Source: a virus. Taken from it: 34,206 nt of DNA. Of the stretch, positions 2,668-33,947 are shown in pieces. Every line of letters starts with the position of its first letter. Position 1 is the stretch's first letter. The translations under genes were made by a program, and so were the position numbers. Below the pieces are notes generated by a model, which saw only the letters and a list, made by a program, of their open reading frames with translations, made no database searches and was not told the origin of the DNA. Location of the stretch: IMG/VR virus record IMGVR_UViG_3300017756_000049, positions 1 through 34,206 of that record. One strand, given 5' to 3'.

Positions 2668-2953
2668 TGATGTTAGATCAACAAGCATGGGTGTTAGTGG
2701 CAGTGATGTTCAACTTAGCCCTCTGGCTAGCAAGTCTTTCGCGTATGATGTCGAATGCAAGTCGCTTGCGCGAGTTGGAGTCTATCGTTTTGTTGACCAG
2801 TGCAACAATCGAGGCGATGCACAACCACTTGTCATCGTTAAAGAAAACAGACGCAAGCCTCTCGCAGTCGTAGACGCGGAGCATTTTTTTGAATTACTAA
2901 GGTTAACCAAGTTAACCTCTGGAGATACAGATGAAACACATGGTAATACCTGA
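2576..2953 (+). CDS. PD-(D/E)XK-type endonuclease, putative Holliday-junction/T7 gp3-like role
   Basis: A 125-aa protein with a compact nuclease signature: VSGSDVQLS with Asp44, then YDVECKS with Glu60 and Lys62, followed by LVIVKENRRKPLAVVD. This matches the D...E-x-K core of PD-(D/E)XK nucleases common in marine phages. The role is inferred from its place next to the exonuclease (T7 encodes gp3 and gp6). The only plausible start is ATG 2576, because no other start codon occurs before the conserved GRKLQQW block. The gene overlaps the exonuclease by 92 nt in a different frame. Its 3' end contains the GTTAACC repeat at 2901 and overlaps the next gene by 23 nt. Confidence 0.78.
   Translation: MKTQSAKAKGRKLQQWTAEQILKTYPHLESDDVRSTSMGVSGSDVQLSPLASKSFAYDVECKSLARVGVYRFVDQCNNRGDAQPLVIVKENRRKPLAVVDAEHFFELLRLTKLTSGDTDETHGNT
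2901..2917 (+). repeat. GTTAACC dispersed repeat, copy 1
   Basis: GGTTAACCAAGTTAACC. It is an inverted repeat with 7-bp arms around CAA, and each half contains the palindrome GTTAAC. It lies inside the 3' end of the nuclease gene (read as Leu-Thr-Lys-Leu-Thr) and ends 13 nt before the ATG of the metallophosphoesterase gene, just upstream of its GGAG ribosome binding site. Confidence 0.95.
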
Positions 2954-3692
2954 CACGCAAGTGAAGCCCGGTAATCCTATCGAGCATTTGAAGTGGGCAG
3001 GACAATATGCTGTGGAGAAAAAGCCTGATGTTATCGTACACATTGGCGATCACTTTGATATGCCATCACTGTCTACGTATGACGTTGGTAAGAAATCATT
3101 TGAAGGACGTAGGTACATTAACGATATCAACTCAGGTATCGAAGGTATGCAAGCGTTCCTTGCACCTATTCGTAAGGAGCAGAAAAGACTAGCGCGTAAC
3201 AAACACAAGCAGTGGAACCCTCGTCTGGTATTCACACTTGGTAACCATGAGAATCGTATTGCTCGTGCAATTGAATCTGATCCTAAACTTGAAGGACTTA
3301 TGTCTTTCGATGATTTATACTTGAAAGAGATGGGATGGGAAGTCTATGGATTCTTACAGCCAGTGGTTATTGATGGCGTTTGTTATAGCCATTACTTTGT
3401 ATCTGGTGTTATGGGGAGACCAGTGAGTTCATCCAATGCGCTGATCAACAAGCAACACATGTCGTGTGTGATGGGTCATGTTCAAGACAGATCAATCAGC
3501 TACGCACGCAGAGCAGACGGTAAGCGTATCACTGGATTGTTTGCAGGTATCTTCTATCAACATGATGAGGACTACTTGAACCCACAGACTAACGGATCAT
3601 GGTCTGGTATCTGGATGTTGCATGAGGTACAAGATGGTACATTCGATGAGATGCCAGTGTCTATCAATTACTTGAGGAACAGATATGTCTGA
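2931..3692 (+). CDS. Calcineurin-like metallophosphoesterase
   Basis: A 253-aa protein with metallophosphoesterase motifs: PDTQ (Asp8, Gln10), VHIGDHFD (Asp40), TLGNHEN (Asn105, His106, Glu107) and MGHVQD (His). The first motif is normally D-x-H; here it is D-x-Q, seen in some phage members. The fold hydrolyses phosphomonoesters or phosphodiesters, and the substrate cannot be told from sequence. Candidates are nucleotides or nucleic-acid ends, given neighbours in DNA metabolism. The start is ATG 2931 after GGAG at 2921, 13 nt after repeat copy 1. It overlaps the next gene by 8 nt. Confidence 0.85.
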   Translation: MKHMVIPDTQVKPGNPIEHLKWAGQYAVEKKPDVIVHIGDHFDMPSLSTYDVGKKSFEGRRYINDINSGIEGMQAFLAPIRKEQKRLARNKHKQWNPRLVFTLGNHENRIARAIESDPKLEGLMSFDDLYLKEMGWEVYGFLQPVVIDGVCYSHYFVSGVMGRPVSSSNALINKQHMSCVMGHVQDRSISYARRADGKRITGLFAGIFYQHDEDYLNPQTNGSWSGIWMLHEVQDGTFDEMPVSINYLRNRYV

Positions 3693-3912
3693 TCTGTATG
3701 AGATGGCAAGGAACCATCAGATTGGAGGAGACCATTACCAAAAGTCTATTCAGCCTTGGGATTACATGGAAGTAGTACTGGCTGAAGAGCAGTTCAAAGG
3801 TTACCTAATTGGTAATGTAATCAAGTACATCTCTCGCTTTCAGGACAAAGGCGGAGCAATTGATTTGCAGAAATGCAAACATTACCTTGACAAGCTGATA
3901 GAAGTATGGTAG
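3685..3912 (+). CDS. DUF3310 family small protein (T7 gp1.7-related)
   Basis: A 75-aa protein with the DUF3310 pattern: GGDHYQKSIQPWDYME near the N-terminus, then GNVIKYISRFQDKGG and DLQKCKHYLDKLIE. DUF3310 proteins are common in phages. T7 gp1.7, a nucleotide kinase, carries a related domain, so a role in nucleotide metabolism is plausible beside the RNR genes, but this short form has no P-loop. It overlaps the metallophosphoesterase by 8 nt and is followed 5 nt later by the next gene. Confidence 0.85.
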   Translation: MSDLYEMARNHQIGGDHYQKSIQPWDYMEVVLAEEQFKGYLIGNVIKYISRFQDKGGAIDLQKCKHYLDKLIEVW

Positions 3913-3917
3913 AATAG

Positions 3918-4094
3918 ATGTTCACGCTTGAAGAAATTAAGGATAAACTCAAGCAGTTGGATGAGGTGACTCTGATGGAAACATTGGACATCACCTCAGA
4001 AGACTTAGTAGAAAGATTCACAGACCGAATCGAAAAACACCAAGATACACTGGAGAATGATTTCGATGAAACAACACCTTGGGATAACGATTGA
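3918..4094 (+). CDS. Small acidic protein of unknown function, upstream of nrdA
   Basis: A 58-aa frame starting at ATG 3918 (MFTLEEIKDKLKQLDEVTL) and ending in a strongly acidic tail (ENDFDETTPWDND). The N-terminal two thirds look helical and amphipathic. It fits between DUF3310 (5-nt gap) and nrdA (29-nt overlap) with no other frame using this DNA, which supports it as a real gene. Function not recognised. Confidence 0.7.
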   Translation: MFTLEEIKDKLKQLDEVTLMETLDITSEDLVERFTDRIEKHQDTLENDFDETTPWDND

Positions 4095-5823
4095 TGTTGA
4101 AAGAGACTCTCGCCTCAGCGATCAAGCGATTACACTTATGCGGGACTACTACATGTTTGAACATGAGACAAGTCCTCAAGAAGCTTTTGCGCGTGCCGCA
4201 GTTGCTTATTGTAAAGATGACCTCGATCTTGCTCAACGCATTTACGATTACGCTAGCAAAGGTTGGTTTATGTTTGCGTCACCTGTGCTTTCAAACGCAC
4301 CTGACGATACAAGAGACAATAGGGGCTTGCCTATTAGCTGTTTCCTTACTTACGTGGGGGACAATCTTGATTCTCTTATTGAACACAATGGTGAAGTAGC
4401 ATGGCTTTCCGTAAAGGGCGGCGGTGTGGGTGGGCATTGGTCAGACGTGAGAGGGATCAGCGACAAAGCCCCCGGCCCGATACCGTTCATGAAAGTAGTG
4501 GACAGCCAGATGACAGCTTACAAACAAGGAAAGACAAGAAAAGGTAGCTATGCCGCATACATGGATGTATCGCACCCTGACATTGAGGAGTTTGTTTCCT
4601 TCAAAGTAGCAACGGGTGGAGATATAAACCGCAAGTGTTTTAATTTATTTAACGCAGTGAATATCACAGATGACTTTATGGAGGCAGTGATAAATGATTC
4701 AGACTTCAACCTTACAGACCCGAATACAGGAATTGTCAGAGATACAGTTAAAGCTCGCAAACTGTGGCAACGAATCCTTGAAGCTAGGTTCAGAACTGGT
4801 AGCCCATACCTTAACTTTATCGACACAGCCCGACGATCTTTACCAGAGGCTCAAAGAAAACTTGGATTGTCAATTAATGGCAGTAACCTCTGCAATGAAA
4901 TCCATCTCGCAACAAATGAAGAACGCACAGCAGTCTGCTGTCTCTCCTCAGTCAACCTTGAAAAGTATGACGAGTGGAGAACAAGTGGAATGGTTGGAGA
5001 CCTTATCCGACTCTTGGACAACGTGCTTCAATATTTTATCGACAACGCACCAGAAGAACTGGGAAAAGCTGTCTACTCAGCATATAGAGAGCGTTCAATC
5101 GGCCTTGGAGCAATGGGCTTCCATGGGTACCTCCAAGGCAAAGGCATAGCGTGGGAGTCATGGCAAGCGGCGAGTGAGAACTATGGTATCTTTAAAGAGA
5201 TTAAGTCACAGGCTAAGGAAGCCACTTATGCACTGGCTACTGAACGGGGAGAGTGTCCTGATGGAGAAGGCACTGGCGTTCGTAACATGCACTTGCTCGC
5301 GATTGCACCCAATGCTAACAGTTCCATTCTCTGTGGTTGTAGTGCTTCTATTGAGCCTCGTATCAGCAATTGTTATGTGCATCGTACTCGTGCAGGCAGT
5401 CATACAGTGCGTAATACATATCTGGAAGAACTGTTAGATGAATACAACCAGAATACCAAGAAGGTTTGGCAGTCTATCATTGAGAACGAAGGCTCTGTAC
5501 AGCACTTGGAGTTCTTATCCGACGATGAGAAAGCAACGTTTAAGACAGCGTTTGAACTCGATCAGGGATGGGTTGTTGAACACTCCGCTAAAAGACAGGA
5601 TTTTATATGCCAAGGACAGAGTGTTAACGTCTTCTTCCCGTCCGGGACTGACAAGGCTATTGTCAATCAGGTACACCTCAAGGCGTGGAAGGAAGGACTT
5701 AAAGGATTATACTATCTCCGAACGACTGCAGGTGTTACAGCGGAAAAGGTTGGGACTAAAGTAGATCGTAATGCTCTCAAGGACTTTGAGGATGATGATG
5801 TATGCGTAAGTTGTCAAGGATAA
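4066..5823 (+). CDS. nrdA: Ribonucleotide reductase class I, large (alpha) subunit
   Basis: Reduces ribonucleotides to deoxyribonucleotides together with NrdB. Key residues are visible: Cys92 in ISCF (redox pair), SNLCNEI (active-site Asn, Cys, Glu), AVCCLSS (second redox Cys), the radical-transfer Tyr pair in LKGLYYLRT and a C-terminal CVSCQG for reduction by thioredoxin/glutaredoxin. At 585 aa it is much shorter than E. coli NrdA (761 aa) and has no N-terminal ATP-cone, so dATP feedback inhibition of overall activity is probably absent. ATG 4066 is preferred over 4057 because GGAG at 4052 is 10 nt away. It overlaps the small gene before it by 29 nt and is followed by a 57-aa gene and nrdB. 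Confidence 0.96.
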   Translation: MKQHLGITIDVERDSRLSDQAITLMRDYYMFEHETSPQEAFARAAVAYCKDDLDLAQRIYDYASKGWFMFASPVLSNAPDDTRDNRGLPISCFLTYVGDNLDSLIEHNGEVAWLSVKGGGVGGHWSDVRGISDKAPGPIPFMKVVDSQMTAYKQGKTRKGSYAAYMDVSHPDIEEFVSFKVATGGDINRKCFNLFNAVNITDDFMEAVINDSDFNLTDPNTGIVRDTVKARKLWQRILEARFRTGSPYLNFIDTARRSLPEAQRKLGLSINGSNLCNEIHLATNEERTAVCCLSSVNLEKYDEWRTSGMVGDLIRLLDNVLQYFIDNAPEELGKAVYSAYRERSIGLGAMGFHGYLQGKGIAWESWQAASENYGIFKEIKSQAKEATYALATERGECPDGEGTGVRNMHLLAIAPNANSSILCGCSASIEPRISNCYVHRTRAGSHTVRNTYLEELLDEYNQNTKKVWQSIIENEGSVQHLEFLSDDEKATFKTAFELDQGWVVEHSAKRQDFICQGQSVNVFFPSGTDKAIVNQVHLKAWKEGLKGLYYLRTTAGVTAEKVGTKVDRNALKDFEDDDVCVSCQG

Positions 5824-5826
5824 CAT

Positions 5827-6000
5827 ATGAAAGAAGAAGCACAAACATTACTTAAGATATTAGACTTGGTGAAAGACCACGACCCATTTAATAAACGATT
5901 ACTTAATGACTGCTTTACAGTCATACAACAATTGACCAATAAACTAGACACACTGGAGAAACAAATATATGAGCTTGCAGGAACAGAGCAAAAGCTATAA
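5827..6000 (+). CDS. Small coiled-coil-like protein between nrdA and nrdB
   Basis: A 57-aa frame starting at ATG 5827 (MKEEAQTLLKILDLVKDHD) and ending QIYELAGTEQKL. It is rich in Leu, Lys, Glu and Gln with heptad-like spacing, suggesting a helix or coiled coil. AAGGA lies 6 nt upstream, inside the nrdA stop region, so it is coupled to nrdA. It overlaps the nrdB start by 32 nt. Its constant position inside an RNR operon suggests an accessory role, but that is inference. Confidence 0.68.
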   Translation: MKEEAQTLLKILDLVKDHDPFNKRLLNDCFTVIQQLTNKLDTLEKQIYELAGTEQKL

Positions 6001-6922
6001 ACCATTCTCATACCCTTGGGCAGTGACATACGCAACAGAACATGAGCGTATCCACTGGATTGAGGACGAACTGGAGTTACAGACGGATGTCAATCATTGG
6101 AAGTCAGGAGCATTATCGCAGGAAGAAAAGAACCACATCACCCAGATCCTGCGGTTATTTACACAAACAGACGTGGCGGTTGGAACAAACTACTTGGAGT
6201 ATTACATTCCCAAGTTCAAGAACAATGAGATCAGAGCCATGCTCACGGCCTTTGCTTCACGAGAGTTCATCCACCAACGAGCCTACGCCCTGCTCAATGA
6301 TACTCTGGGACTACCTGAAGAAGAGTTCACAACCTTCTTAGAGTATCAGCAGATGGCTGAGAAGGTAGATTTTATGGGTGACATTGACATGCATAGTCAT
6401 CAAGGAACTGCACTGGCTATCGCACGTTCTGTACTTAATGAAGGCATGTCACTGTTCAGTGCGTTTGCTATGCTCTTAAATTATCAACGTCAGGGTAAGA
6501 TGCCCGGAATGTGTACAGTTGTTGAGTGGTCAGTACGTGATGAGTCACAACACGCAGAAGGTATGGCTAAATTATTTAGGGAGTTCTGCGATGAGCATCC
6601 ACGAGTAGTGAATGATGATTTCAAGAAAGATATCTACGAGATGTTTCGGACTGCAGTCAAACTTGAAGACAGGGTTATTGATCTTGCGTATGAGATGGGT
6701 GACTTGGAAGGTCTCGCGGCGGCAGATGTTAAGCAGTACATTCGCTACCTCGCAGACAGACGTTTACTGCAACTTGGTCTTAAGACGAACTGGAAGGTTA
6801 AAGAGAACCCTCTACCGTGGATGGAAGAGTTGTTGGGAGGTAGTTCTATTTCTAACTTCTTTGAGAAGAGAGTTACAGACTACAATGCACATGGTTTGGA
6901 AGGAGAAGATTGGGGATGGTAA
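5969..6922 (+). CDS. nrdB: Ribonucleotide reductase class I, small (beta) subunit
   Basis: A 317-aa radical-generating subunit. Diiron ligands can be placed as Asp68, Glu99, His102, Glu158, Glu192 and His195. The radical tyrosine is Tyr106 in EFIHQRAY, matching E. coli E115/H118/Y122 spacing, so this is a tyrosyl-radical class Ia/Ib-type enzyme. The C-terminus ends EDWGW and should bind NrdA. The start ATG 5969 follows GGAG at 5955 and lies inside the preceding small gene. No phage thioredoxin or glutaredoxin gene is seen, so host reductants are presumably used. Confidence 0.95.
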   Translation: MSLQEQSKSYKPFSYPWAVTYATEHERIHWIEDELELQTDVNHWKSGALSQEEKNHITQILRLFTQTDVAVGTNYLEYYIPKFKNNEIRAMLTAFASREFIHQRAYALLNDTLGLPEEEFTTFLEYQQMAEKVDFMGDIDMHSHQGTALAIARSVLNEGMSLFSAFAMLLNYQRQGKMPGMCTVVEWSVRDESQHAEGMAKLFREFCDEHPRVVNDDFKKDIYEMFRTAVKLEDRVIDLAYEMGDLEGLAAADVKQYIRYLADRRLLQLGLKTNWKVKENPLPWMEELLGGSSISNFFEKRVTDYNAHGLEGEDWGW

Positions 6923-7104
6923 CAGCTAGATTTCACCACGTATTTGGACTGTCAGCAGAGACAGTGGAAGATCAACCAGTATTAGGTTTTAAACAATGGG
7001 AGACTATTGATGAGGCAGAAGTATACTTCTTCAATGGTTTTATTATTAACATACCATTTGTAAAGATCATGATCGGCGATGTCTACGGCATCGTTGAAGA
7101 CTGA
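6916..7104 (+). CDS. Small hypothetical protein, last gene of the plus arm
   Basis: A 62-aa frame (MVTARFHHVFGLSAETVED...). It overlaps the nrdB stop by 7 nt. AGGAG at 6901-6905 is 10 nt before ATG 6916; a TTG six bases earlier is less likely. It is mixed hydrophobic/acidic with a hydrophobic centre (FFNGFIINIPFVKIMIG) that might be a buried strand or weak membrane segment. It ends 21 nt before the terminator hairpin. Function unknown. Confidence 0.6.
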   Translation: MVTARFHHVFGLSAETVEDQPVLGFKQWETIDEAEVYFFNGFIINIPFVKIMIGDVYGIVED

Positions 7105-7125
7105 ACCACCCTCCAGTGGACTTAG

Positions 7126-7151
7126 GGGGACTTCATAGTCCCCTTCTTTTT
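7126..7151 (+). terminator. Rho-independent terminator closing the plus arm
   Basis: Stem GGGGACT / AGTCCCC (7126-7132 and 7137-7143) with loop TCAT, followed by TTCTTTTT. It lies 21 nt after the last plus-strand gene and just before the convergent minus-strand gene. No T-run follows the hairpin on the minus strand, so it acts on plus-strand transcription only. Confidence 0.9.
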
Positions 7152-7153
7152 GA

Positions 7154-7170
7154 GGTTAACCAAGTTAACC
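7154..7170 (+). repeat. GTTAACC dispersed repeat, copy 2 (convergent junction)
   Basis: Exact GGTTAACCAAGTTAACC between the plus-arm terminator and the stop codon of the last minus-arm gene; its last base is shared with that stop codon. It is the only copy not near a plus-strand gene start or inside a plus-strand gene, and it marks the meeting point of the two arms. Confidence 0.95.
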
Positions 7171-9302
7171 TACTTAGCCCTCTGAGGAATATCATCTTCT
7201 AGTCCACGCTTCAAGATCTCTTGATTGTAATACTTACGCGCTACTTCAGGATCTTCTCTACGTAACTGAGCAAAGTAAGCCATACGAATCTTTCCTTGCG
7301 CTTTAGTTGTTACATCCTCAAGTACTTTCTTTCGACGTGACTTACTCATGTTCTTGTACGATGGTGATCTAATCAATCTCTCAAGTATTGGTGTGAGCAT
7401 CTCTGCTGACATCTGTCTGAACTCACCAAGCTGTTCAGTGGTCAGACCAACTCGCATGATGGTGTCACCTACACGTCCCTTGGTAAAGTTAAGATCAGTT
7501 AACTCTTGTTGTAGTTCTGATTGCGGTGTTGACTTAACACCGAAGCCTGTAATTGCTTGTATAAAGTCTGTCTCACGTGGCCCACCAATAGCACCGTATT
7601 CCATAGGCAAATCCCTACGAATTATTGGGAACCGTTGCTGTAGTTTTTCAAGTGGTGTTGTAGCCAAGCGTTCGTATGAATCTGTTGAGCGTGCAACCAT
7701 GTTTAAGAATGCAGGAGACAGAGGTCTTAATCCTGCCGCAGTAAATGATTCAATGTAACGAGCAGGGTCAGCCACAACTTCTGTAATGTTTGAAAAACCT
7801 TCCATAAAAGATTTACTAAACATGTTTGATTTTAATGCAGTCAGTATTGGCTTTACTCGATTTTCTAACCACTTCTCATCTTTGTCTGGATCTTTGCTTT
7901 GATTGTATTCATCTGTAATACGTATCAAATCTGATGTCAAACCAAGCACTGTAGCAATCGGCTCAATACGTTGATACGCTACCCATGAATCTCCAATCTT
8001 AATAGAGAATGGTTGAATACCTTGATCTTTCCATGCCTGTGCTTCCTGTGCATTCTTAGGTGATCCAGTAATTTGACCACTGCCATACATAGCCGCAACA
8101 CCTGCGAACATAGAAGCTCCTAAGATCTGACGAGGAATCAACTCATCATTGCTCATCTTCACAGGAGTAGCACCCTCAAGATACTTAGGTCTCAAAGCAA
8201 TTCCAAGCCCAGGAACAAACGATGTTCCTTCCTTCAATATGTTCCAAGGAGTTTTAATAAAAGGAACAAAATAAGTAAGTAGTGCGTTATCACGTCTTAA
8301 GTCTTGAGCAGTCTTTACAAATCCTATCAAAGGAGCCTGAAATGTTTGACGTAATGCAAACTCTTTTATTGATTTGTATGGTATAAAATCTTCATCTGAT
8401 TGTCCAAAGACTCTCCCAATGTCTGTCTTTAACTGACCAAACACGTCTTCAATTTCAAGTGCTTTACCTTCATCAACAACAGATAATGCTTCTTTGCGAT
8501 ACTGATTATATAACTCACGATAGTTACCCATACCCTTGGCAGAATCTTCTCGCGCTTTGACTGATGCCATCTGTGCTATCTTCTGTCTACGGAATCGAGC
8601 CTTACCATATTCATCAATTGCTACAGCCGCACGTGTAGGCCATCGAATAATATTCCCACCATACTCAGCAGGGATTGCACCACGAATGTAGTCATATGCT
8701 TCATCCATGTATGCTTCAAATTCATCAGGTGTAAAGCCTTGTTTTTCAAACGCATCCGTAAGTTGTTTCATTGTGGCTGTGTTGTCAGGATCTGCAAACT
8801 GTATTCTTGCTTTGCTTGCCGCAATCTCTTTGCCAATAATTTGCCGTGCTTTTGCAGGAGATACTTTAAGTTGACGCGCTAAAGCTGTAGTGCTACGAGT
8901 AATGTCAAGAGGATAACCACTCTTCCACCCTTGTTTCAGGAACATAATGTCAGCACCAAATCCCTCAAGTGCCGCCTCAAACATAGCCATACTATCAGCC
9001 AATGCACGATTACCTTTAGTAAGACGCAGGCTATCTGTGACTGCTCCAATCATTTCTAATGTGGGTGCTGTAAAGTTTTGAACACCAACAGAGATAGCGT
9101 TAGCAATAGGTGTACCAAAGCCTGACAAGTATCCATTGATTACACCTTCAAGTATTTTGTCTTTTAAACGAGTAGGCTTAGTTGCTTTGTTCAATCCTTT
9201 ACGAATTGCAATAGCAAGTTCTTTTTCACTAAGCTCTGAATTTTCCATTGTATCTAAAGCTAAATTAACTCTAGTATTACAAGCTTCACTTACTTTTGGC
9301 AT
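7170..9302 (-). CDS. Large internal virion protein (putative DNA-ejection protein)
   Basis: A 710-aa protein, last gene of the virion operon. It is helix-rich with hydrophobic and Gly/Ala-rich stretches (GTPIANAISVGVQNFTA near the N-terminus, ASMFAGVAAMYGSGQ in the middle) and blocks such as PFIKTPWNILKEG and QPFSIKIGDSW that I associate with internal/ejection proteins of marine podoviruses. Position after the tail and fibre genes matches T7 gp15/gp16. No lytic transglycosylase motif is evident. The start chosen is ATG 9302, sharing one base with the preceding stop (TAATG), with GGAG upstream; a GTG at 9308 is also possible. Confidence 0.75.
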   Translation of the reverse strand: MPKVSEACNTRVNLALDTMENSELSEKELAIAIRKGLNKATKPTRLKDKILEGVINGYLSGFGTPIANAISVGVQNFTAPTLEMIGAVTDSLRLTKGNRALADSMAMFEAALEGFGADIMFLKQGWKSGYPLDITRSTTALARQLKVSPAKARQIIGKEIAASKARIQFADPDNTATMKQLTDAFEKQGFTPDEFEAYMDEAYDYIRGAIPAEYGGNIIRWPTRAAVAIDEYGKARFRRQKIAQMASVKAREDSAKGMGNYRELYNQYRKEALSVVDEGKALEIEDVFGQLKTDIGRVFGQSDEDFIPYKSIKEFALRQTFQAPLIGFVKTAQDLRRDNALLTYFVPFIKTPWNILKEGTSFVPGLGIALRPKYLEGATPVKMSNDELIPRQILGASMFAGVAAMYGSGQITGSPKNAQEAQAWKDQGIQPFSIKIGDSWVAYQRIEPIATVLGLTSDLIRITDEYNQSKDPDKDEKWLENRVKPILTALKSNMFSKSFMEGFSNITEVVADPARYIESFTAAGLRPLSPAFLNMVARSTDSYERLATTPLEKLQQRFPIIRRDLPMEYGAIGGPRETDFIQAITGFGVKSTPQSELQQELTDLNFTKGRVGDTIMRVGLTTEQLGEFRQMSAEMLTPILERLIRSPSYKNMSKSRRKKVLEDVTTKAQGKIRMAYFAQLRREDPEVARKYYNQEILKRGLEDDIPQRAK

Positions 9303-11883: not shown

Positions 11884-11887
11884 GAGG

Positions 11888-12799: not shown

Positions 12800-12809
12800 A
12801 TTTTAGTCC

Positions 12810-13720: not shown

Positions 13721-13730
13721 TTGATCTTCC

Positions 13731-16729: not shown

Positions 16730-17053
16730 TTAGCCTCCTTGGACAATATCGTTGTGTTCTATGACAGATACAATTAGTGTCATAGATTGTGTGGCACTGG
16801 CTGTAATTGTTTGTCCTGCATCTATAAACACAAACGTATTTTCATGTCCGCCAATGTCTTTAAAATCTTTGGAAGACACGCTATAAGAATCTAGTAAAAC
16901 TAAACCATTAACAGACATAGTAACTGTCCCATTAGAACCAGAGACATTAGTAATGTAAGCATGAACCCATTCAGCTTTTTTGCCTGCAGGAACTGTGTAA
17001 ACTGCCGTTGCTGATCCTGTTAGTGTAGCTCCAAAAGACTTACGAATACTCAT
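16730..17053 (-). CDS. Beta-rich structural-type protein, unknown function
   Basis: A 107-aa protein (MSIRKSFGATLTGSATAVYTV) with alternating Thr/Ser/Val strands: AEWVHAYITNVSGSNG, TVTMSVNGLVLLDS and an end like TQSMTLIVSVIEHND. It looks like a small immunoglobulin-like or jelly-roll decoration or neck protein common in phage structural clusters. It overlaps its upstream neighbour by 4 nt (ATGA). Assignment to virion structure is from context. Confidence 0.6.
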   Translation of the reverse strand: MSIRKSFGATLTGSATAVYTVPAGKKAEWVHAYITNVSGSNGTVTMSVNGLVLLDSYSVSSKDFKDIGGHENTFVFIDAGQTITASATQSMTLIVSVIEHNDIVQGG

Positions 17054-23638: not shown

Positions 23639-23667
23639 TAGAGTTTCTCCCTAATTATAATGCAATT

Positions 23668-25773: not shown

Positions 25774-25774
25774 A

Positions 25775-28275: not shown

Positions 28276-28308
28276 ATACAGTACTCTGTAGTTATCGCAA
28301 CAATCATT

Positions 28309-28366: not shown

Positions 28367-28376
28367 TAGTGCTAAT

Positions 28377-28405
28377 ATTGTAGCATACTTTTAAGGATTT
28401 GTCAA
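28377..28405 (-). promoter_or_regulatory. Sigma70 promoter for the terminase/virion operon
   Basis: On the minus strand TTGACA (28405-28400), 17-bp spacer, TACAAT (28382-28377): one mismatch from perfect. The -35 is one arm of TGTCAA-N10-TTGACA (28400-28421), a dyad that could bind a regulator over the promoter. Transcription would start near 28370 and read about 95 nt of structured leader before the small-terminase gene. Confidence 0.82.
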
Positions 28406-28619
28406 GTTATATTTTGACACTACAATATAGTTTCCCTTCTTCGGCGGGTTTCAGGCAGTATTCCTCCGCAGTGCGTAATTGATTTTCTCTATTATAATCA
28501 GTATCTTAATCAGTTCTTACGCAAATGCAAATCATTCTTATTTAAATCCTAAATTCACCTTTTTTTGTATCTGAGTAGGTACACTATATCGACGCAATGT
28601 TGTGCGCCCTCCCCCGGCC

Positions 28620-28745
28620 TGTGGATAACTTTGGGGATAACTATTTAATTTCTGTGGATAACTCAACAATCCTGTGGATAAATATGCTCTGCCTGTGGAA
28701 AACTAGCGAGAGAATGTGTATAAGTAGTACCTACCCCGTGGATAA
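28620..28745 (+). other. Phased array of seven DnaA boxes: candidate replication origin
   Basis: Same-orientation 9-mers start at 28620 (TGTGGATAA), 28632 (TGGGGATAA), 28653 and 28673 (TGTGGATAA), 28694 (TGTGGAAAA), 28715 (TGTGTATAA) and 28737 (CGTGGATAA). Four match the DnaA consensus TTATNCACA exactly (reverse complement); three differ at one base. From the second box on, starts are 21, 20, 21, 21 and 22 bp apart, two helical turns. Sequence between boxes is not conserved, so these are boxes and not long iterons. The first box context CCTGTGGATAAC equals that of E. coli oriC R1 as I recall it. Confidence 0.85.
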
Positions 28746-28815
28746 GTCTGTTAATACCCCACCTATGTAACCAATAGTTCTAATAACCCAGATCCTTATG
28801 ACAAATTAATCTAAC

Positions 28816-28832
28816 GATTAACCTGGTTAACC
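28816..28832 (+). repeat. GTTAACC dispersed repeat, degenerate copy
   Basis: GATTAACCTGGTTAACC, 14 of 17 positions as in the other copies. It ends exactly one base before the -35 hexamer of the predicted early promoter, where a regulator would contact RNA polymerase. Confidence 0.75.
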
Positions 28833-28860
28833 TTGACGCACGACTGGTTTCTGTTAGCAT
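28833..28860 (+). promoter_or_regulatory. Predicted early promoter of the plus arm
   Basis: TTGACG (28833-28838), 16-bp spacer, TAGCAT (28855-28860) preceded by an extended -10 TGT. Weaker than the other promoters but well placed, with the degenerate GTTAACC repeat abutting the -35. The transcript would carry about 55 nt of AT-rich leader before ATG 28924. Confidence 0.6.
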
Positions 28861-28923
28861 GTACATATGGTCAATAAAGATCATAAATAAAGTAAATAGT
28901 AAATATATAGACTGGAGGGTCTA

Positions 28924-29463
28924 ATGACTACTAAAAACGAAGCGATTCAATTCGATGGGAAAGGTGTGTCTTACGCGAAGTTCTTAAATACTGATGTGAG
29001 CTTGATTGTTGAGTCCACGGATGGTAAGCAAGTGTCGAACATGGTCGAGATGGTTAACCAAGTTAACCTAGACAAGGATATCATCAAGGGCTATTGCTCT
29101 GAGTTTGAATCAATGTTGCTTGCGGCGGGTAAGGATAAGCAGACAATCAAGGCTTTAAAGTCTGCCAGAAAATGCGTATTGGATTTCGCACTAGGCATTC
29201 GCAAGAAGCAACAGGCCCAGCCGGAACTATGGGAAAATGGCGAAGGTAAGACCATGATTGTCAAAGAGTTCAAAGGAGCCGGTAATATCAACGCTCTAGC
29301 GGGACTATGCCGCGAAGCCGAAGGCGACGAAGAAGCACCGAAGCCTTGGGACCTTGGCGAAAAACTCAACGCATTGCTTGAGAAAGCATACGAAGAGGGC
29401 TACAACCAAGCCGATATCCAGAAAGCGTTCAAGGAGTTGACAGCCGAACCGAAAGCGGCGTAA
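28924..29463 (+). CDS. First early gene; unknown function
   Basis: A 179-aa acidic protein (MTTKNEAIQFDGKGVSYAKF) with a good GGAGGG site. The middle is helical (LLAAGKDKQTIKALKSARKC), and the C-terminal half is Glu/Ala/Lys-rich (EKLNALLEKAYEEGYNQADI). Codons 43-48 (MVNQVNL region) are the in-frame reading of a GTTAACC repeat. It is the leftmost plus-strand gene, next to the origin-like region, and is followed by its own strong terminator, so it is a single-gene unit. Such genes in T7-like phages are often host-takeover proteins, which is inference here. Confidence 0.72.
   Translation: MTTKNEAIQFDGKGVSYAKFLNTDVSLIVESTDGKQVSNMVEMVNQVNLDKDIIKGYCSEFESMLLAAGKDKQTIKALKSARKCVLDFALGIRKKQQAQPELWENGEGKTMIVKEFKGAGNINALAGLCREAEGDEEAPKPWDLGEKLNALLEKAYEEGYNQADIQKAFKELTAEPKAA
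29052..29068 (+). repeat. GTTAACC dispersed repeat, copy 3 (inside early gene)
   Basis: Exact GGTTAACCAAGTTAACC inside the first early gene, read as Val-Asn-Gln-Val-Asn. This is a different reading frame from the copies at 2901 and 33181, which are read Leu-Thr-Lys-Leu-Thr. Conservation is therefore at the DNA or RNA level, not the protein level. Confidence 0.95.
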
Positions 29464-29470
29464 TCGAGAG

Positions 29471-29490
29471 AGGGGCGAAAGCCCCTTTTT
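29471..29490 (+). terminator. Rho-independent terminator after the first early gene
   Basis: AGGGGC-GAAA-GCCCCT: a 6-bp stem with a GNRA loop, followed by TTTTTCTTT. It starts 8 nt after the stop codon. Separates the first early gene from the rest of the plus arm. Confidence 0.92.
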
Positions 29491-29538
29491 CTTTGTCTAA
29501 AATAAAATTTTTTTACACCGGATCTCAGCACCAAGCTG

Positions 29539-29560
29539 TGTTATACTGTGTTTACACAGT
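29539..29560 (+). promoter_or_regulatory. Extended -10 promoter with overlapping dyad
   Basis: TGTTATACT (29539-29547) is an extended -10; no good -35 lies 16-18 bp upstream. A perfect 6-bp-arm dyad ACTGTG-TTTA-CACAGT (29545-29560) overlaps the -10 and the expected start point, as in a repressor operator. It would serve the 29619 operon just after the terminator. Confidence 0.65.
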
Positions 29561-29587
29561 CGAGCGGCAGTGTTCGTTCTGTGTTGA

Positions 29588-29604
29588 AGTTAACCAAGTT
29601 AACC
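29588..29604 (+). repeat. GTTAACC dispersed repeat, copy 4
   Basis: AGTTAACCAAGTTAACC (the 16-mer core is exact; first base A). It ends 14 nt before ATG 29619, just upstream of the GGAGGG ribosome site, and lies in the leader of the transcript from the 29539 promoter. Confidence 0.95.
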
Positions 29605-29618
29605 TACTGGAGGGTTAC

Positions 29619-29924
29619 ATGAACAATCAAGTTACAGTGGAGACTTTACTCAAGGTGTTCATCAGTGAGGTGGTCGAATGTATCAAGAAGCCATCACAAG
29701 TTGACGAATATGCATATTACAACAGCGAGCCTAAAAACTTTGAGTTGCGCGTGCGTACTCAGGTTGGTGGTTCTTACTGGTCATTGCGTGGTATCTCATC
29801 ACAAGTGTTCAAGCATAGCGAAGCTGTGGAGTTTGAGAAGCGTTCGCAAGAGTTCTTCCATAGTCACTGTCGTAACATCATGGACGCATACGAGGGCTTG
29901 AATACACCGGAGTATCAGGACTGA
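29619..29924 (+). CDS. Early hypothetical protein
   Basis: A 101-aa protein (MNNQVTVETLLKVFISEVVE) with a central beta-like, aromatic region (FELRVRTQVGGSYWSLRGIS) and charged helices to the end. The start is set by GGAGGG at 29609-29614; the frame stays open upstream to 29493 through the promoter and repeat, which is coincidental. One base overlaps the next gene (TGATG). Function unknown. Confidence 0.65.
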   Translation: MNNQVTVETLLKVFISEVVECIKKPSQVDEYAYYNSEPKNFELRVRTQVGGSYWSLRGISSQVFKHSEAVEFEKRSQEFFHSHCRNIMDAYEGLNTPEYQD

Positions 29925-30025
29925 TGGAGTTCGTAGTACTTTGGATTGGCCTGTTGTGCTTTATCGGGGCGTGCGCTTGCACGTCTCATGTTATTGCTGA
30001 ATTTATGAGGAAGTATTTCAAATGA
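29924..30025 (+). CDS. Tiny predicted membrane peptide
   Basis: A 33-aa frame: MEFVVLWIGLLCFIGACACT followed by SHVIAEFMRKYFK. A single hydrophobic helix with three Cys and a basic C-terminal end. It is tightly fitted between neighbours: its ATG shares a base with the upstream stop and its stop overlaps the next ATG (ATGA), which argues that it is translated. Function unknown; small early membrane peptides are known in several phages. Confidence 0.55.
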   Translation: MEFVVLWIGLLCFIGACACTSHVIAEFMRKYFK

Positions 30026-30675
30026 GTTTCGAAGTTGTAAACCCAGTGATCAATGCGTACATGCAGAAAGATCACAAGCATATGATGGACGGTATCATGT
30101 TTGTTGTGTTATCGGTGAAGGCACCATTCAGTACGATGGACATGCAGATGCGTGATTACCGTGAGAAAGGACGTGACTCCAAATATATTTGGGGTTGGAA
30201 GAAAGATACATACGACTATCTGCAGAAGAACAGCGAGGAGTTGTACTATCAGTTGATGTATCTATCAAAGAAGCGGTGGTCTTCTGGTACTGGTGCTCAC
30301 ATGAGTGATCGTACTATTCGTGATCGAAAGATGATGCTTGTGCTTACAAATGTTCCGGGCCTTGGTCTAGCCAAAGCAGGTTTTGTGATGCAGATGATGT
30401 TCGGTCGTGTCGGTTGTATTGATGTGCATAACTTGCGACGCTTGCGTACTGTCAGTATCAAGGATCTTCAGTTCACGAAGATGCTGTCAGATGAGACCAA
30501 GATGAAGAAGATCGAGAACTATGTGGACATTTGCAAACACAACAATTCCACCAAGCGGTTGTGGGATCAGTGGTGCGAGCAACTGACGCAGAAGAAATGT
30601 AACAAGAGTAAGTTTAGTACAGGTTGGGATGTGTCTGTGTTCCACCTGTCTGCTCTGACTGGACGAACGATTTAA
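30022..30675 (+). CDS. Helix-hairpin-helix protein, HhH-GPD/EndoIII-like (putative)
   Basis: A 217-aa basic protein. Residues about 110-140 read NVPGLGLAKAGFVMQMMFGR then VGCIDVHNLRRL. This is a helix-hairpin-helix (PGLGLAKA) followed by a [V/I]D-x-H-N-x-x-R segment, the arrangement seen in HhH-GPD base-excision glycosylases, where Asp is catalytic. Overall length and flanks are unlike EndoIII and there is no iron-sulfur Cys cluster, so it may be a DNA-binding relative rather than an active glycosylase. It overlaps the membrane peptide by 4 nt. Confidence 0.6.
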   Translation: MSFEVVNPVINAYMQKDHKHMMDGIMFVVLSVKAPFSTMDMQMRDYREKGRDSKYIWGWKKDTYDYLQKNSEELYYQLMYLSKKRWSSGTGAHMSDRTIRDRKMMLVLTNVPGLGLAKAGFVMQMMFGRVGCIDVHNLRRLRTVSIKDLQFTKMLSDETKMKKIENYVDICKHNNSTKRLWDQWCEQLTQKKCNKSKFSTGWDVSVFHLSALTGRTI

Positions 30676-30710
30676 CCTCCAGTGTCCTGAGCATGACCTT
30701 AAACTGCTCA

Positions 30711-30727
30711 AGTTAACCAAGTTAACC
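30711..30727 (+). repeat. GTTAACC dispersed repeat, copy 5
   Basis: AGTTAACCAAGTTAACC in the only gap of this operon (30676-30741). It ends 14 nt before ATG 30742 and directly precedes AAGGAG. The spacing to the start codon is nearly the same as for copies 1 and 4. Confidence 0.95.
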
Positions 30728-30741
30728 TTAAGGAGATTACA

Positions 30742-30951
30742 ATGATGATATTCAATTACAGCAGTAAGAAAGAGATGCGTGAGCATATTGGTCAGCGTCT
30801 CAACTACACTGAGACATCGTGGTTTGGGCCGGAGTATAAGGCCAATGGAGTATTGACAGGATCTAACAGACCACAACTTACGGATAACAAGGGGCGTGAG
30901 TTCTTTGCACAGGTCACAATGAGTGACGGCTTAATAGCAGGAGTGAAGTAA
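30742..30951 (+). CDS. Conserved small marine-phage protein, unknown function
   Basis: A 69-aa protein: MMIFNYSSKKEMREHIGQRL, then ETSWFGPEYKANG, TGSNRP and GREFFAQVTMSDGLIAGVK. The FNYSSKKE..E.IGQ and GPEY...G...GSNRP blocks recur in many marine podovirus genomes. No function is known to me. It begins a run of three coupled small genes after repeat copy 5. Confidence 0.68.
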   Translation: MMIFNYSSKKEMREHIGQRLNYTETSWFGPEYKANGVLTGSNRPQLTDNKGREFFAQVTMSDGLIAGVK

Positions 30952-31298
30952 TGAAAGGTGTATTAGTAGATCCTTATCTCAAGACTATTGAGAACGTAGA
31001 AGTGAATGACTACACAGATATCAGCAAGCATTTGCAGTGTGATATCTTCTGCAGTGGTGGTTATGATGAGGGCGGTGATGCCATATATGTGAATGACGAG
31101 GGACTGTATGAGGAGACAGAGTTCTGGTATGCACCAGAGATATATCCTTACCCGTATGCGGGGCGTGTGTTGTTCCTTGGTATCAATCGTGCCAATGGAG
31201 AATCTCAGGATGCATTCTTGGATGCAGAAGATGTGATGGACATTGATCACAAGTTCATGTCTCGTGATGAGGTATCAGTGATGGGAGACTTGGGATGA
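30951..31298 (+). CDS. Small acidic protein, DUF3846-like (tentative)
   Basis: A 115-aa acidic protein (MKGVLVDPYLKTIENVEVND). The layout, MK..LVDP...I..VEV at the start, then AIYVNDEGLYEE, GRVLFLGIN and QDAFLDAEDV, resembles DUF3846 phage/plasmid proteins, but the match is by eye and weak. The ATG shares a base with the upstream stop (TAATG). It overlaps the next gene by 4 nt. Confidence 0.6.
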   Translation: MKGVLVDPYLKTIENVEVNDYTDISKHLQCDIFCSGGYDEGGDAIYVNDEGLYEETEFWYAPEIYPYPYAGRVLFLGINRANGESQDAFLDAEDVMDIDHKFMSRDEVSVMGDLG

Positions 31299-31585
31299 TA
31301 TGGACTGATGGTTGTGAGTACAGATGTGCTCACTGGTGGTATGACTCAGAGGATAACGACTACCAACTGACTACGACGTGGAAGTTTGAGAAGAACTATC
31401 CTGATATGCCTGACTACTGGCACTTGCAAGATGTTGAATTTGATGCAGGTTCTGCTCGTGCCTTGGCGAACAACCATGCTGATGAGATACTGTCAGGGTG
31501 TCGCAACGGTGGGTCTGTATGGTGTGACATTGAGTCGCAAGGTCCAGACTTAAATCAATTAGAAGAGGTAAGTTATTATGAGTAG
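31295..31585 (+). CDS. Small Trp/acid-rich hypothetical protein
   Basis: A 96-aa acidic protein (MIWTDGCEYRCAHWWYDSED), rich in Trp, Tyr, Asp and Glu with four Cys (positions 7, 11, about 69 and 77), which might bind metal or form a small fold. It overlaps the upstream gene by 4 nt and the HTH gene by 8 nt. Function unknown. An acidic DNA-mimic role is a formal possibility only. Confidence 0.6.
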   Translation: MIWTDGCEYRCAHWWYDSEDNDYQLTTTWKFEKNYPDMPDYWHLQDVEFDAGSARALANNHADEILSGCRNGGSVWCDIESQGPDLNQLEEVSYYE

Positions 31586-31820
31586 ATACTATGGAACAGG
31601 AGTTAGACTAATGGGTATGCGTCGAGGTGAAGAACAAGTCAATGCGAAGTTGACAGCAGATCAGGTGCGTCAGATTCGTGAGCTTGATCGAGAGCGTGTT
31701 GTGCTCAAGGAGAAACTTGCTAACTTGTCACAGCGTGCAATCGCGGATCGCTTTGGTGTCTCCAAGCAGAGAGTGTGGGAGATTGTTAACTTTCGCAATG
31801 GTGCATGGAGTCACGTTTGA
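31578..31820 (+). CDS. Small helix-turn-helix DNA-binding protein (candidate regulator)
   Basis: An 80-aa protein. The core reads NAKLTADQVRQIRELD, a Leu/Lys/Glu helix, then LSQRAIADRFGVSKQRVWEI and VNFRNGAWSHV. This is a clear helix-turn-helix (Q-x-x-IADRFGVS-x-x-RVWEI) of the kind found at the ends of HNH homing endonucleases and in small phage regulators. ATG 31578 follows AGAGG; ATG 31611 after AGGAG at 31596-31600 is an alternative that keeps the whole domain. It is the only clear sequence-specific regulator in the plus arm and so a candidate ligand of the dispersed repeats. The promoter of the next gene overlaps its stop codon. Confidence 0.75.
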   Translation: MSRYYGTGVRLMGMRRGEEQVNAKLTADQVRQIRELDRERVVLKEKLANLSQRAIADRFGVSKQRVWEIVNFRNGAWSHV

Positions 31821-31845
31821 GATTCTTAATTGGTTGTGTTATACT
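31817..31845 (+). promoter_or_regulatory. Sigma70 promoter before the zinc-finger gene
   Basis: TTGAGA (31817-31822), 17-bp spacer, TATACT (31840-31845) with extended -10 TGT. One mismatch in each hexamer. The -35 overlaps the stop codon of the HTH gene. It would start transcription near 31852, heading to the zinc-finger, primase-helicase and polymerase genes. Confidence 0.82.
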
Positions 31846-31880
31846 GGTAGTAATTTTATACCTGATCAGGAGTGCTACCC

Positions 31881-32081
31881 ATGAGATGCCTATCATGTGA
31901 CGCTGAGTTGACTGACTTTGAGGCCACTCGTAAAAGCGCAGAGTCTAATGAATTCATAGACTTATGTAACTATTGTTACTCATTTGTGAAGAGTGAAATC
32001 AATGCAGTCGAGCGTCAGGATCTGATGCATGATTGTGATGAAAATAATTTTTTTGTACCTGATTCTTCAGATGATTTGTGA
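31881..32081 (+). CDS. Small zinc-finger-like protein
   Basis: A 66-aa protein: MRCLSCDAELTDFEATRKSA, then FIDLCNYCYSFVKSEINA and an acidic tail (DCDENNFFVPDSSDDL). Two CxxC pairs (Cys3/Cys6 and two near residues 26-29) form a likely zinc knuckle. AGGAG at 31868-31872 sets ATG 31881. The family is frequent in marine phages upstream of replication genes; function unknown. The next promoter overlaps its 3' end. Confidence 0.7.
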   Translation: MRCLSCDAELTDFEATRKSAESNEFIDLCNYCYSFVKSEINAVERQDLMHDCDENNFFVPDSSDDL

Positions 32082-32087
32082 TATACT
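32079..32087 (+). promoter_or_regulatory. Extended -10 promoter before the hairpin leader
   Basis: TGATATACT (32079-32087): extended -10 with TATACT overlapping the stop of the zinc-finger gene. No convincing -35 at 16-18 bp. Transcription would start near 32094 and run straight into the inverted repeat at 32105-32138. Confidence 0.55.
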
Positions 32088-32104
32088 ATTCTCTCTTGAG
32101 ATAC

Positions 32105-32138
32105 GTAAGAGATAATTATTATCTTAGTTATCTCTTAC
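32105..32138 (+). repeat. 11-bp perfect inverted repeat, GTAAGAGATAA
   Basis: GTAAGAGATAA (32105-32115) and TTATCTCTTAC (32128-32138) separated by 12 nt, itself containing ATTATCTT. The 12-mer GTAAGAGATAAT is shared with 28319 in the leader of the minus operon. It lies at the 5' end of the predicted transcript from 32079-32087, before ATG 32159. It may be an operator or an RNA hairpin controlling entry into the replication genes. Confidence 0.85.
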
Positions 32139-32158
32139 AACAACTTAGGACTGTTGAG

Positions 32159-32395
32159 ATGAATGATTTAAATATTCCTATTGAGGAATTTACTATTGCG
32201 ATGGAGGAGCACAACAATCACATTGTGATGACTGAGTGTTGTGATTTGATTTACAGACATGGACTCTTGCGTGTGCTAACATCTCTTTCGGATTATTGTT
32301 GTGATCCAAAAGAAGCGTATGCTCTTGCAGTGCTCGCAAACATTTACAAGGAGAGTGAACATGCCTTTTGTAAAGACGCACCAACCATGCAATGA
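32159..32395 (+). CDS. Small acidic helical protein upstream of primase-helicase
   Basis: A 78-aa protein from ATG 32159 (MNDLNIPIEEFTIAMEEHNN), helical, with several Cys (TECCDL; DYCCD) and ending EHAFCKDAPTMQ. AGGA is 9-10 nt upstream. It overlaps the primase-helicase by 35 nt. The open frame extends back to 32078, but that part covers the hairpin and promoter. Function unknown. Confidence 0.62.
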   Translation: MNDLNIPIEEFTIAMEEHNNHIVMTECCDLIYRHGLLRVLTSLSDYCCDPKEAYALAVLANIYKESEHAFCKDAPTMQ

Positions 32396-33947
32396 CTGTG
32401 GATCAAGTGATGGTCTGTCAATCAACGATGACGGATGGACTCATTGCTTTGTCTGTGAGGCACGTACAGCCCCGCAGTCCGACGATTACATACCAACCTA
32501 TGAGGAGGTACAGGTGGAAGCCAAACAACTAGATACTGTCCACGAGATTTATCTAACGATTATCGAACGTGGTATCAGCAGTGACACAGCCAAGGCATAC
32601 AAGTGTGCGAAAGATGGACAGATGTACCACTTCAATTACACTGACAGCCAAGGCAACATCATTGCTTACAAGACACGCACCGCTGACAAGAACTTTCGCA
32701 TCAACGGTGACTGGAAGAATGCTGTACTATACGGACAGAACCTGTTCAGCAAGGGTGGTAAGTTTGTCACCATTGTGGAAGGTGAGTTCGATGCGATGGC
32801 TACATACCAAATGCTTGGATCAAAGTATCCTGTCGTATCAGTACGCAACGGAGCCGCATCCGCGTCCAAGGATATTCGCAAGCAGTATGAGTGGCTCGAC
32901 TCGTTCGACAACGTGGTGATCTGCTTTGACTCAGACGAGGCAGGTCAACGTGCCGCTTCACAGGTGGCAGAGATCTTTGGTAGCAAAGCTAAGATCTTCA
33001 AGCACCTCGATGGTATGAAGGATGCCTGTGACTATCTTCAGCATAAGAAGATGAAGGAGTTCACTGATAAGTGGTGGGCATCTGAACAGCATGTACCTGA
33101 TGGCATCATTGCAGGTAACAGTCTGTATGAGGAGGTGATGAAACCTGTTACACCTGCTGACGTTGACTATCCATTTGCAGGGTTAACCAAGTTAACCTAT
33201 GGTGTACGCAAGGGTGAGCTAGTCACCATCACTGCAGGTTCAGGACTTGGTAAGTCTCAGTTCGTGCGTGAGATTGTGTGGCACATACTGAACAAGACAA
33301 CAGACAACATCGGCTTGATGTTCTTGGAAGAATCAGTACGCAAGACTGCGCTGTCTATCATGTCACTCGCCGCTAACAAACCACTGCATCTACCTGACGC
33401 AGATGCGACTGACGAGGAGAAGACGGATGCCTACAAGCAGACTCTTGGTACTGATCGTATGTACCTCTTTGACCACTTTGGGAGTACATCAGTCGATAAC
33501 ATTATTAATCGAGTCCGGTATCTTGCCAAGGGACTGGGGTGTACTTATATTTTTCTCGATCATATTAGTATCGTGGTATCTGCTCAAGCCAGTGGAGACG
33601 AACGAAAAGCAATAGATGAGATCATGACCAAGCTCCGTATGCTTGTACAAGAGACTGGTGTATCTCTGATTGTGGTGTCACACCTCAAACGTCCTGAGTC
33701 CAAGGGACATGAAGAGGGTGCGGCTACCTCATTGGCACAGCTACGTGGCTCTGGTTCTATTGCTCAGTTATCTGACATGGTGATTGGATTGGAGCGTAAC
33801 GGTCAGGCTGATGACGAACAGGAACGTAACACCACACGAGTGCGAGTGCTTAAGAATCGTTTCTGTGGTATCACTGGCCCTGCATGTAGCTTGCTTTATT
33901 CTCGTGAGACTGGTAGAATGAGTGAGATAAATGAAGAGGAGTTGTAA
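32361..33947 (+). CDS. Bifunctional primase-helicase, T7 gp4-like
   Basis: A 528-aa replisome enzyme. An N-terminal zinc ribbon (Cys10, Cys13, Cys29, Cys32) recognises priming sites. The TOPRIM primase has VEGEFDAMATY and ICFDSDEAGQ. A DnaB-type helicase follows with Walker A GSGLGKS (293-299), Walker B YIFLDHIS, then IVVSHLKRP and QLRGSGSIAQLSD. ATG 32361 follows AAGGAG by 7 nt. It overlaps the upstream gene by 35 nt and the polymerase ATG by one base, so helicase and polymerase are coupled as partners. A GTTAACC repeat is embedded at codons 274-279. Confidence 0.95.
   Translation: MPFVKTHQPCNDCGSSDGLSINDDGWTHCFVCEARTAPQSDDYIPTYEEVQVEAKQLDTVHEIYLTIIERGISSDTAKAYKCAKDGQMYHFNYTDSQGNIIAYKTRTADKNFRINGDWKNAVLYGQNLFSKGGKFVTIVEGEFDAMATYQMLGSKYPVVSVRNGAASASKDIRKQYEWLDSFDNVVICFDSDEAGQRAASQVAEIFGSKAKIFKHLDGMKDACDYLQHKKMKEFTDKWWASEQHVPDGIIAGNSLYEEVMKPVTPADVDYPFAGLTKLTYGVRKGELVTITAGSGLGKSQFVREIVWHILNKTTDNIGLMFLEESVRKTALSIMSLAANKPLHLPDADATDEEKTDAYKQTLGTDRMYLFDHFGSTSVDNIINRVRYLAKGLGCTYIFLDHISIVVSAQASGDERKAIDEIMTKLRMLVQETGVSLIVVSHLKRPESKGHEEGAATSLAQLRGSGSIAQLSDMVIGLERNGQADDEQERNTTRVRVLKNRFCGITGPACSLLYSRETGRMSEINEEEL
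33181..33197 (+). repeat. GTTAACC dispersed repeat, copy 6 (inside primase-helicase)
   Basis: Exact GGTTAACCAAGTTAACC just upstream of the helicase Walker A, read Leu-Thr-Lys-Leu-Thr. It occupies the junction between primase and helicase domains, a linker where codon choice is freer. No gene start is near. Confidence 0.95.

Follow-up and report, generated by a model that had tools for sequence, protein, structure and literature searches.

Palindromic sites dispersed along the early arm of a marine phage group change type in step with gp1, a candidate early-arm regulator

The window analysed here is the whole of IMGVR_UViG_3300017756_000049, a viral contig of 34,206 bases whose genes form two arms. 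The plus-strand, or early, arm makes up 38% of the window and carries a primase-helicase gene, a metallophosphoesterase gene (MPE) and a nucleotide-kinase-like gene, together with DNA polymerase, single-stranded DNA-binding protein (SSB), exonuclease and ribonucleotide-reductase genes that were named from their reading frames. On the minus arm lie the genes for terminase, portal, scaffold-like, tail and internal virion proteins. Dispersed along the early arm is an exact 16-mer, GTTAACCAAGTTAACC, with six plus-strand copies starting at 2902, 7155, 29053, 29589, 30712 and 33182. In the window and its relatives these sites keep their positions, occur only on the early arm and are under selection as DNA, and their type changes in step with gp1, the first gene of that arm. 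The 16-mer is probably the core of a palindromic operator for gp1, a predicted autoregulated repressor of the early arm.

The original prediction, made from the letters of the window, described the six copies and a degenerate seventh as exceeding chance. The positions were as described; the seventh copy (start 28817, plus strand) has three mismatches, and at up to three mismatches the window contains 13 matches vs a mean of 0.35 (largest 3) in 100 dinucleotide shuffles. Each of the six exact copies is followed by T, as had been noted. Four have an additional 5' G that completes a perfect 7-bp inverted repeat, GGTTAAC-CAA-GTTAACC, and the remaining two read AAGTTAACC-AAGTTAACC; the spacer is CAA throughout. 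By simple binomial reasoning, with zones chosen by the analyst, the confinement of all six to the early arm or its very end has a P of about 0.003, and the location of three of the six just 5' of a start codon (40-nt zone) a P of about 0.004. Three copies lie in open reading frames (ORFs) and in two different frames, again as first described: gp1 in frame 0, and the helicase-primase gene and ORF 2501-2953 in frame 2. The degenerate site S1 has full-palindrome counterparts in relatives (e.g. L195, L200), and site S11 recurs in L127, L152 and L157. Coordinates are collected in Table 1.

Table 1. Coordinates of the palindromic sites, gp1 and associated features in the window
Feature	Coordinates	Strand	Description
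S1	28816..28832	+	Degenerate palindrome ATTAAC-CTG-GTTAACC, abuts -35 of gp1 promoter
S2	29052..29068	+	Palindrome within gp1, codes V-N-Q-V-N
S3	29588..29604	+	Palindrome a little 5' of gp2 start
S5	30711..30727	+	Palindrome a little 5' of gp4 start
S8	33181..33197	+	Palindrome within primase-helicase gene, codes GLTKLT
S10	2901..2917	+	Palindrome a little 5' of MPE start, inside end of ORF 2501-2953
S11	7154..7170	+	Palindrome where arms converge, past early-arm terminator
gp1	28924..29463	+	First early-arm gene, 179 aa; proposed cognate DNA-binding regulator
gp1 promoter	28833..28860	+	Putative sigma-70 promoter, TTGACG-N16-TAGCAT
gp1 hairpin	29466..29491	+	Intrinsic-terminator-like, directly 3' of gp1
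Arm-end hairpin	7124..7145	+	Intrinsic-terminator-like, closes early arm
Virion-arm promoter	28377..28405	-	Putative, TTGACA-N17-TACAAT; no palindrome nearby
gp7	31578..31820	+	Small helix-turn-helix protein, rejected as partner; in 5/26 records

Relatives were collected by a helicase search of viral contigs that yielded 72 loci, several of them near-copies (e.g. L195/L197/L198 and L157/L160/L189), so that counts across loci are not fully independent. The exact 16-mer occurs in few of these loci. A blind count of repeated 11-mers revealed that the other close relatives repeat a different palindrome, which depending on lineage is GGTTAACGNCGTTAACC, TTAAGCATRCTTAA, TTAATCATGATTAA, TTAGTCATGACTAA or TTTGTA-N2/3-TACAAA, and when recurrent perfect inverted repeats were sought without bias, the class palindrome ranked first in most relatives that gave any match. 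The place upstream of MPE, for example, holds GGTTAACCAAGTTAACC, GGTTAACGCCGTTAACC, GGTTAACTATGGTTAACC, GGTTAAGCATGCTTAAA, GGTTAATCATGATTAAA or CTTAGTCATGACTAAA, and its site is missing in L141, L145, L148 and L158. Site classes were assigned by the analyst from all sites, those in or near gp1 included, as A (centre mostly YNR), B (GNC), C, D, E and F. Across 37 genomes the class patterns are nearly exclusive by genome, and none was found in 284 kb of unrelated contigs. Longer records have 3-10 sites each; when site positions were set against gene maps in eight of them, no own-class site fell in the virion arm, which extends to relatives the one-arm restriction proposed from the window.

About eleven site positions recur among class A and B relatives, each genome having its own subset. 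They lie about 100 nt 5' of gp1, within gp1 (+126 to +135), before gp2, inside gp3 (+141), before gp4, before gp7, in the helicase gene at +123 and at +818 to +848 (shifting through indels), before SSB, before the phosphoesterase gene and at the arm end. The S2-type site within gp1 is present in 13 of the 13 class A/B records that cover the gene, three of which are copies of one phage. Classes C-F have a site close 5' of the gp1 start or on the start codon itself, and sites overlapping a start codon are seen at gp1 in L130 and at MPE in classes C, D and E. Position, on whose conservation in relatives the original prediction had staked the element, thus proved to be conserved; sequence did not, being replaced by discrete palindromes according to lineage, and neither did strand.

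The sites within the helicase gene indicate the level at which selection acts. Where the palindrome occupies the S8 place the protein reads GLTKLTYG, GLTALTYG or GLTSLTYG (ELTALTYG in L022), vs G[VL]N[DGE]LTYG (e.g. GVNDLTYG) where it is absent; at +123 the corresponding readings are DVNQVNH-like vs DDYTPTH, DDWAERN and similar. Both helicase sites, S7 and S8, therefore coincide with amino-acid changes, which argues for selection on DNA to which the coding sequence gave way. Selection on either DNA or RNA had been envisaged, and of the two the DNA half is borne out; hairpin stability is not consistent. RegA targets and start-associated sequences are the comparison for a role at the RNA level, in which the repeats would serve as leader hairpins or as translational operators near ribosome-binding sites. 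Three of the six window copies, and many in relatives, do lie just 5' of a Shine-Dalgarno sequence, and the MPE leader folds into a stable hairpin (-10.5 kcal/mol, z -2.6). However, copy 29589 and the tested class C, D, E and F sites fold no better than shuffles, sites in mid-gene or past the arm end cannot control initiation, and corresponding positions can have either strand of the loop (CAA/TTG, GCC/GGC), so that an RNA function, including the leader hairpin first suggested, is improbable. The same orientation of all copies likewise holds in the window but not as a general or functional rule: relatives also use TTG, TCG and TATG spacers, and the GNC type occurs in both orientations (25 GCC/GAC vs 19 GGC/GTC).

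The type of site covaries with gp1. A gp1 homologue lies between the arms in 23 loci covering that place (near-copies included), and in the more distant relative L168, in which the gp1 interval is covered, no gp1-like ORF was seen. Across classes, identity to the gp1 of the window falls to 9-10%. Class statistics used 33 of the 37 genomes, with L137 (mixed B/F) and L143, L166 and L168 (no site) excluded, and asked which of 19 genes has the identity that best separates same-class from different-class pairs, scored as the area under the curve (AUC). The best was gp1, with an AUC of 0.971 (25 genomes); the other 18 genes ranged from 0.39 to 0.88, led by exo (0.878), gp8 (0.864), x2501 (0.819), m27877 (0.790) and SSB (0.775), with lower values for the helicase (0.678), TerL (0.554), a lysozyme-like gene (0.46) and RNR2 (0.402). 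Among 19 genomes sharing seven genes the AUC of gp1 was 0.992, with 5 class changes, the minimum. A tree of all 25 gp1 sequences requires 6 class changes, and none of the classes B, C and D forms a single clade on it. Partial correlations were 0.53-0.63 for gp1 given another gene and -0.08 to 0.24 for the reverse. With C and D merged, the maximum gp1 identity between genomes of different class is 49%, vs 82-100% for every other gene. Distal sites, defined as lying >700 bp from gp1 so as to separate the test from gp1-proximal class assignment, are of the same type as the gp1-proximal sites in 54 of 55 cases, and all 20 loci fetched through gp1 similarity, several of which are near-copies, had the expected type.

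This covariation also bears on the host. TTAA-containing palindromes resemble some bacterial regulator sites, and the repeats might be bound by a host transcription factor, as the original prediction allowed, and vary with the different hosts of the relatives; no host is known for these phages, and a scan of bacterial genomes with the helicase alignment gave remote matches only (best segments 21-40% identical). Yet site type follows gp1 and not the virion genes (TerL, AUC 0.55; lysozyme-like gene, 0.46), and near-identical genes of many kinds co-occur with different site types. A host regulator is very improbable because, in these mosaic genomes, it is a single phage gene that the type of site goes with. 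CtrA-type sites, whose motif is TTAA-N7-TTAA, were considered and rejected, since the TTAA half-sites stand 5 nt apart in the window and 6 nt apart in classes C and D, not 7. An operator for a phage regulator, one of the roles first listed, is the most likely role, with gp1 as the candidate regulator.

gp1 is a small, all-helical and very fast-evolving phage protein. Its AlphaFold model is helical with a mean predicted local distance difference test score (pLDDT) of 81.7, and a domain model of a relative reached 85.2. Fold searches (Foldseek, VIA-align) gave nothing clear, the best Z being 5.3 for the full model and 7.1 for the domain; there was no clear match in a viral structure library and no tyrosine recombinase among the structural matches listed. 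No helix-turn-helix (HTH) or repressor family, and no recombinase, scored above its curated cut-off, and a tblastn search of 50,697 phage records found no relative of gp1. Weak matches to Pfam Phage_int_SAM (E 0.002-0.25) were obtained in 6 of 16 gp1 members. In hhalign, gp1 scored 22.5 against the core-binding region of lambda Int, vs at most 18.5 in 60 shuffles and at most 15.9 in 7 control proteins; the scores with MrpR/YopR, HP1 Int and YopP were 11.6, 12.3 and 11.6. A six-frame search of the window did not find PF13102. A recombinase-derived DNA-binding domain in gp1 is thus a possible lead, not a finding.

Taken as an operator-repressor system, the arrangement would work as follows. A gp1 homodimer would bind each palindrome, as is suggested by sites that are palindromic and free of orientation. 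At S1 and S2 it would control its own promoter and gene, since sites by the gp1 promoter and inside gp1 point to autoregulation; a TTG...N16...TAWTAT arrangement was seen by eye at the promoter place in most class A and B relatives. At the remaining sites gp1 would halt elongating host RNA polymerase, acting as a roadblock in the manner of a 'stoperator', to which sites before starts, in mid-gene and at the arm end, with no room for a promoter, point. As gp1 accumulated, the early (replication) arm would be turned down. The virion arm would stay on, having zero sites and a good sigma-70 promoter of its own, which matches the consensus at 10 or more of 12 bases in all 24 genomes examined. gp1 may also act on an incoming phage of the same site type, and the site types would therefore form immunity-like groups.

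Several observations weigh against such a repressor. gp1 has no confident Pfam, PHROG or PDB match and no recognised DNA-binding domain. Nor is it the sole class-tracking gene, because gp8 follows the classes fairly well: on the 19-genome set it too requires 5 changes (AUC 0.855), the rest requiring 7-12. The single distal mismatch is a class A site in a class C genome (G010:22194); it adjoins a part of the genome in which RNR2 is 100% identical to that of the class A genome G027, and for that reason is probably a recombinant import. L137 combines a class B site before MPE with a class F site. On the helicase side it resembles class F genomes, and from SSB to the phosphoesterase gene it resembles a class B genome; it is either an assembly chimaera or has arisen by natural recombination. 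In several contigs of classes C, D and E no more than 1-4 sites are present. L152 mixes 3- and 4-nt spacers in one genome, which is odd for a rigid dimer; at the arm end of L152/G016 two overlapping palindromes with 4-nt spacers lie at 17046 and 17056. No lysogeny gene (integrase, parA) was recognised among the ORFs scanned, a scan that covered part of the ORFs, and the immunity role is speculative for that reason. Finally, the location of S1 upstream of the -35 in classes A and B would fit an activator too. On that alternative gp1 would bind the palindromes as an activator or antiterminator of early transcription; S1 lies just 5' of the -35 in class A (centre about -42) and farther 5' in class B, where activators often bind. 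Most sites, however, lie before or on a start codon, in mid-gene or past the last gene, where no promoter can follow, and in classes C-F the gp1 site overlaps the start codon or lies between it and the promoter, which leaves activation unlikely.

A fourth alternative takes its cue from the intergenic region between the divergent arms. At 28620-28745 seven TGTGGATAA-like DnaA boxes, three of them exact and none with more than 1 mismatch, lie within about 125 bp, a possible origin or trap for host DnaA. gp1-bound sites might accordingly serve genome maintenance, replication (fork control) or packaging, in a partition-like manner; the cluster in the lineage of the window adjoins this array, and the sites are spread along the arm and at its end. 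A similar DnaA-box cluster occurs in L152/G016 but was not found, at the stringency of at most 1 mismatch, in eight of the ten group genomes examined, and the sites are still there. Their arrangement by promoters and gene starts suggests transcription instead, so that a maintenance role is quite improbable.

The proposed gp1 repressor has counterparts among temperate phages. The portions consulted of the accounts of cluster A mycobacteriophages (L5, Bxb1, TipsytheTRex) describe stoperators read by an immunity repressor (PMC6550527, PMC9283540). Shared with the L5 system, as far as those portions go, are the many short sites dispersed in short operon gaps with at least one at an early promoter, the joint divergence of site motif and regulator between relatives, with gp1 as the candidate here, and the small size of the regulator, about 180 aa for the L5-type repressor vs 179 aa for gp1 (PMC6550527, PMC9283540). 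According to the same sections, the sites of L5 are 13 bp long, lack symmetry and run in the direction of transcription, with 20-30 genome-wide, and their repressor, which has an N-terminal HTH, is monomeric (PMC6550527, PMC9283540). Systems of the L5 type are further marked by a Stoperator domain in the repressor, by a halt of elongation where the repressor is bound and by a temperate life cycle (integrase or parA). In contrast, the sites described here are 14-18-bp palindromes in either orientation, confined to the early arm and of discrete types; no HTH was recognised in gp1, and no lysogeny gene in the phage. In SPbeta, dispersed intergenic SPBRE elements are bound by MrpR/YopR, a protein derived from the tyrosine-recombinase fold with an N-terminal core-binding domain, according to the part of PMC10516654 that deals with it. 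The likeness is a dispersed element read by a phage regulator, as proposed here for gp1; the differences, on that partial account, are that MrpR has 325 aa and a whole recombinase fold with a remnant of the catalytic domain, whereas the core-binding likeness of the smaller gp1 is weak, and that SPbeta is temperate (PMC10516654). Phage P1 likewise has one repressor, C1, with 22 operators scattered over the genome, as is proposed here, but in the relevant passages of PMC8546580 those operators are 17-bp and asymmetric, and P1 is a temperate plasmid prophage.

The start-associated sequences (SAS) and extended SAS (ESAS) of cluster K mycobacteriophages are repeats just 5' of gene starts; in the sections of PMC3203893 devoted to them the ESAS inverted repeats have 17 bp per arm, a variable spacer and a consensus that differs between subclusters, and no partner protein is given as known. 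Repeats at gene starts and lineage-specific inverted repeats are common to both systems (PMC3203893, in those sections). Here, however, sites also occur inside genes and at the arm end, three of the six exact copies not being at a start, unlike the near-universal start position of SAS, and a covarying protein is identified. The element is set apart from L5 stoperators and from SAS because asymmetry and orientation, in the one case, and start-only position, in the other, fail. Among the papers listed in searches of an open-access library, none described the element, nor any dispersed operators of marine phages like these.

Some neighbouring features complete the description. The small HTH protein that the original prediction had put forward as a partner, gp7, was dropped, since no homologue was found in 21 of 26 related records, element bearers among them. 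gp3 (30022-30675, 217 aa) is kept in nearly all relatives and has no Pfam/PHROG match; its GLGLAKAGFVMQM stretch is reminiscent of helix-hairpin-helix proteins. gp8 (31872-32081, 69 aa) has CxxC motifs and is conserved through the whole group. For the first 24,000 bases of the window, matches were limited to tail-fibre pieces of two Pelagibacter phages. The contig ends (1-93 and 34114-34206), both within the polymerase gene, share an overlap of about 93 nt, similar by eye but with several mismatches, so that the map is probably circular or permuted, with ends from two variants. Record G029 (loci L237-L240; 74.7 kb) joins this phage kind to a second phage-like stretch with related virion genes, and G027 (L241-L243; 52.5 kb) is self-overlapping with a unit of about 38.9 kb. 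They look like an assembly chimaera and a permuted read-through, and because of the second stretch and the self-overlap, respectively, they reveal no insertion site.

Stoperator-like regulons are known in temperate phages; the gp1 regulator family and its switching specificities appear new. It is quite possible, and is proposed tentatively, that in uncultivated marine phages without recognised lysogeny genes an undescribed family of palindrome-reading proteins, gp1, perhaps a stripped-down recombinase core-binding domain, carries out roadblock shutdown of the early arm. The family would have switched among at least five specificities, and phages that appear lytic would thereby fall into immunity-like groups. 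When a regulator changes its specificity all its sites have to be rewritten, and at each switch this would include the sites that change amino acids of the replicative helicase. With at least five end points, positional homologues and a few mosaics (G010, L137), the joint evolution of regulator and regulon is traceable and directly testable. If the proposal is true, a protein family without a database name would gain a function, and palindrome type would be a sequence mark readable from contigs of a few kilobases. If gp1 indeed silences the early arm in trans, this would also account for how related marine phages with no recognised lysogeny genes could exclude each other.

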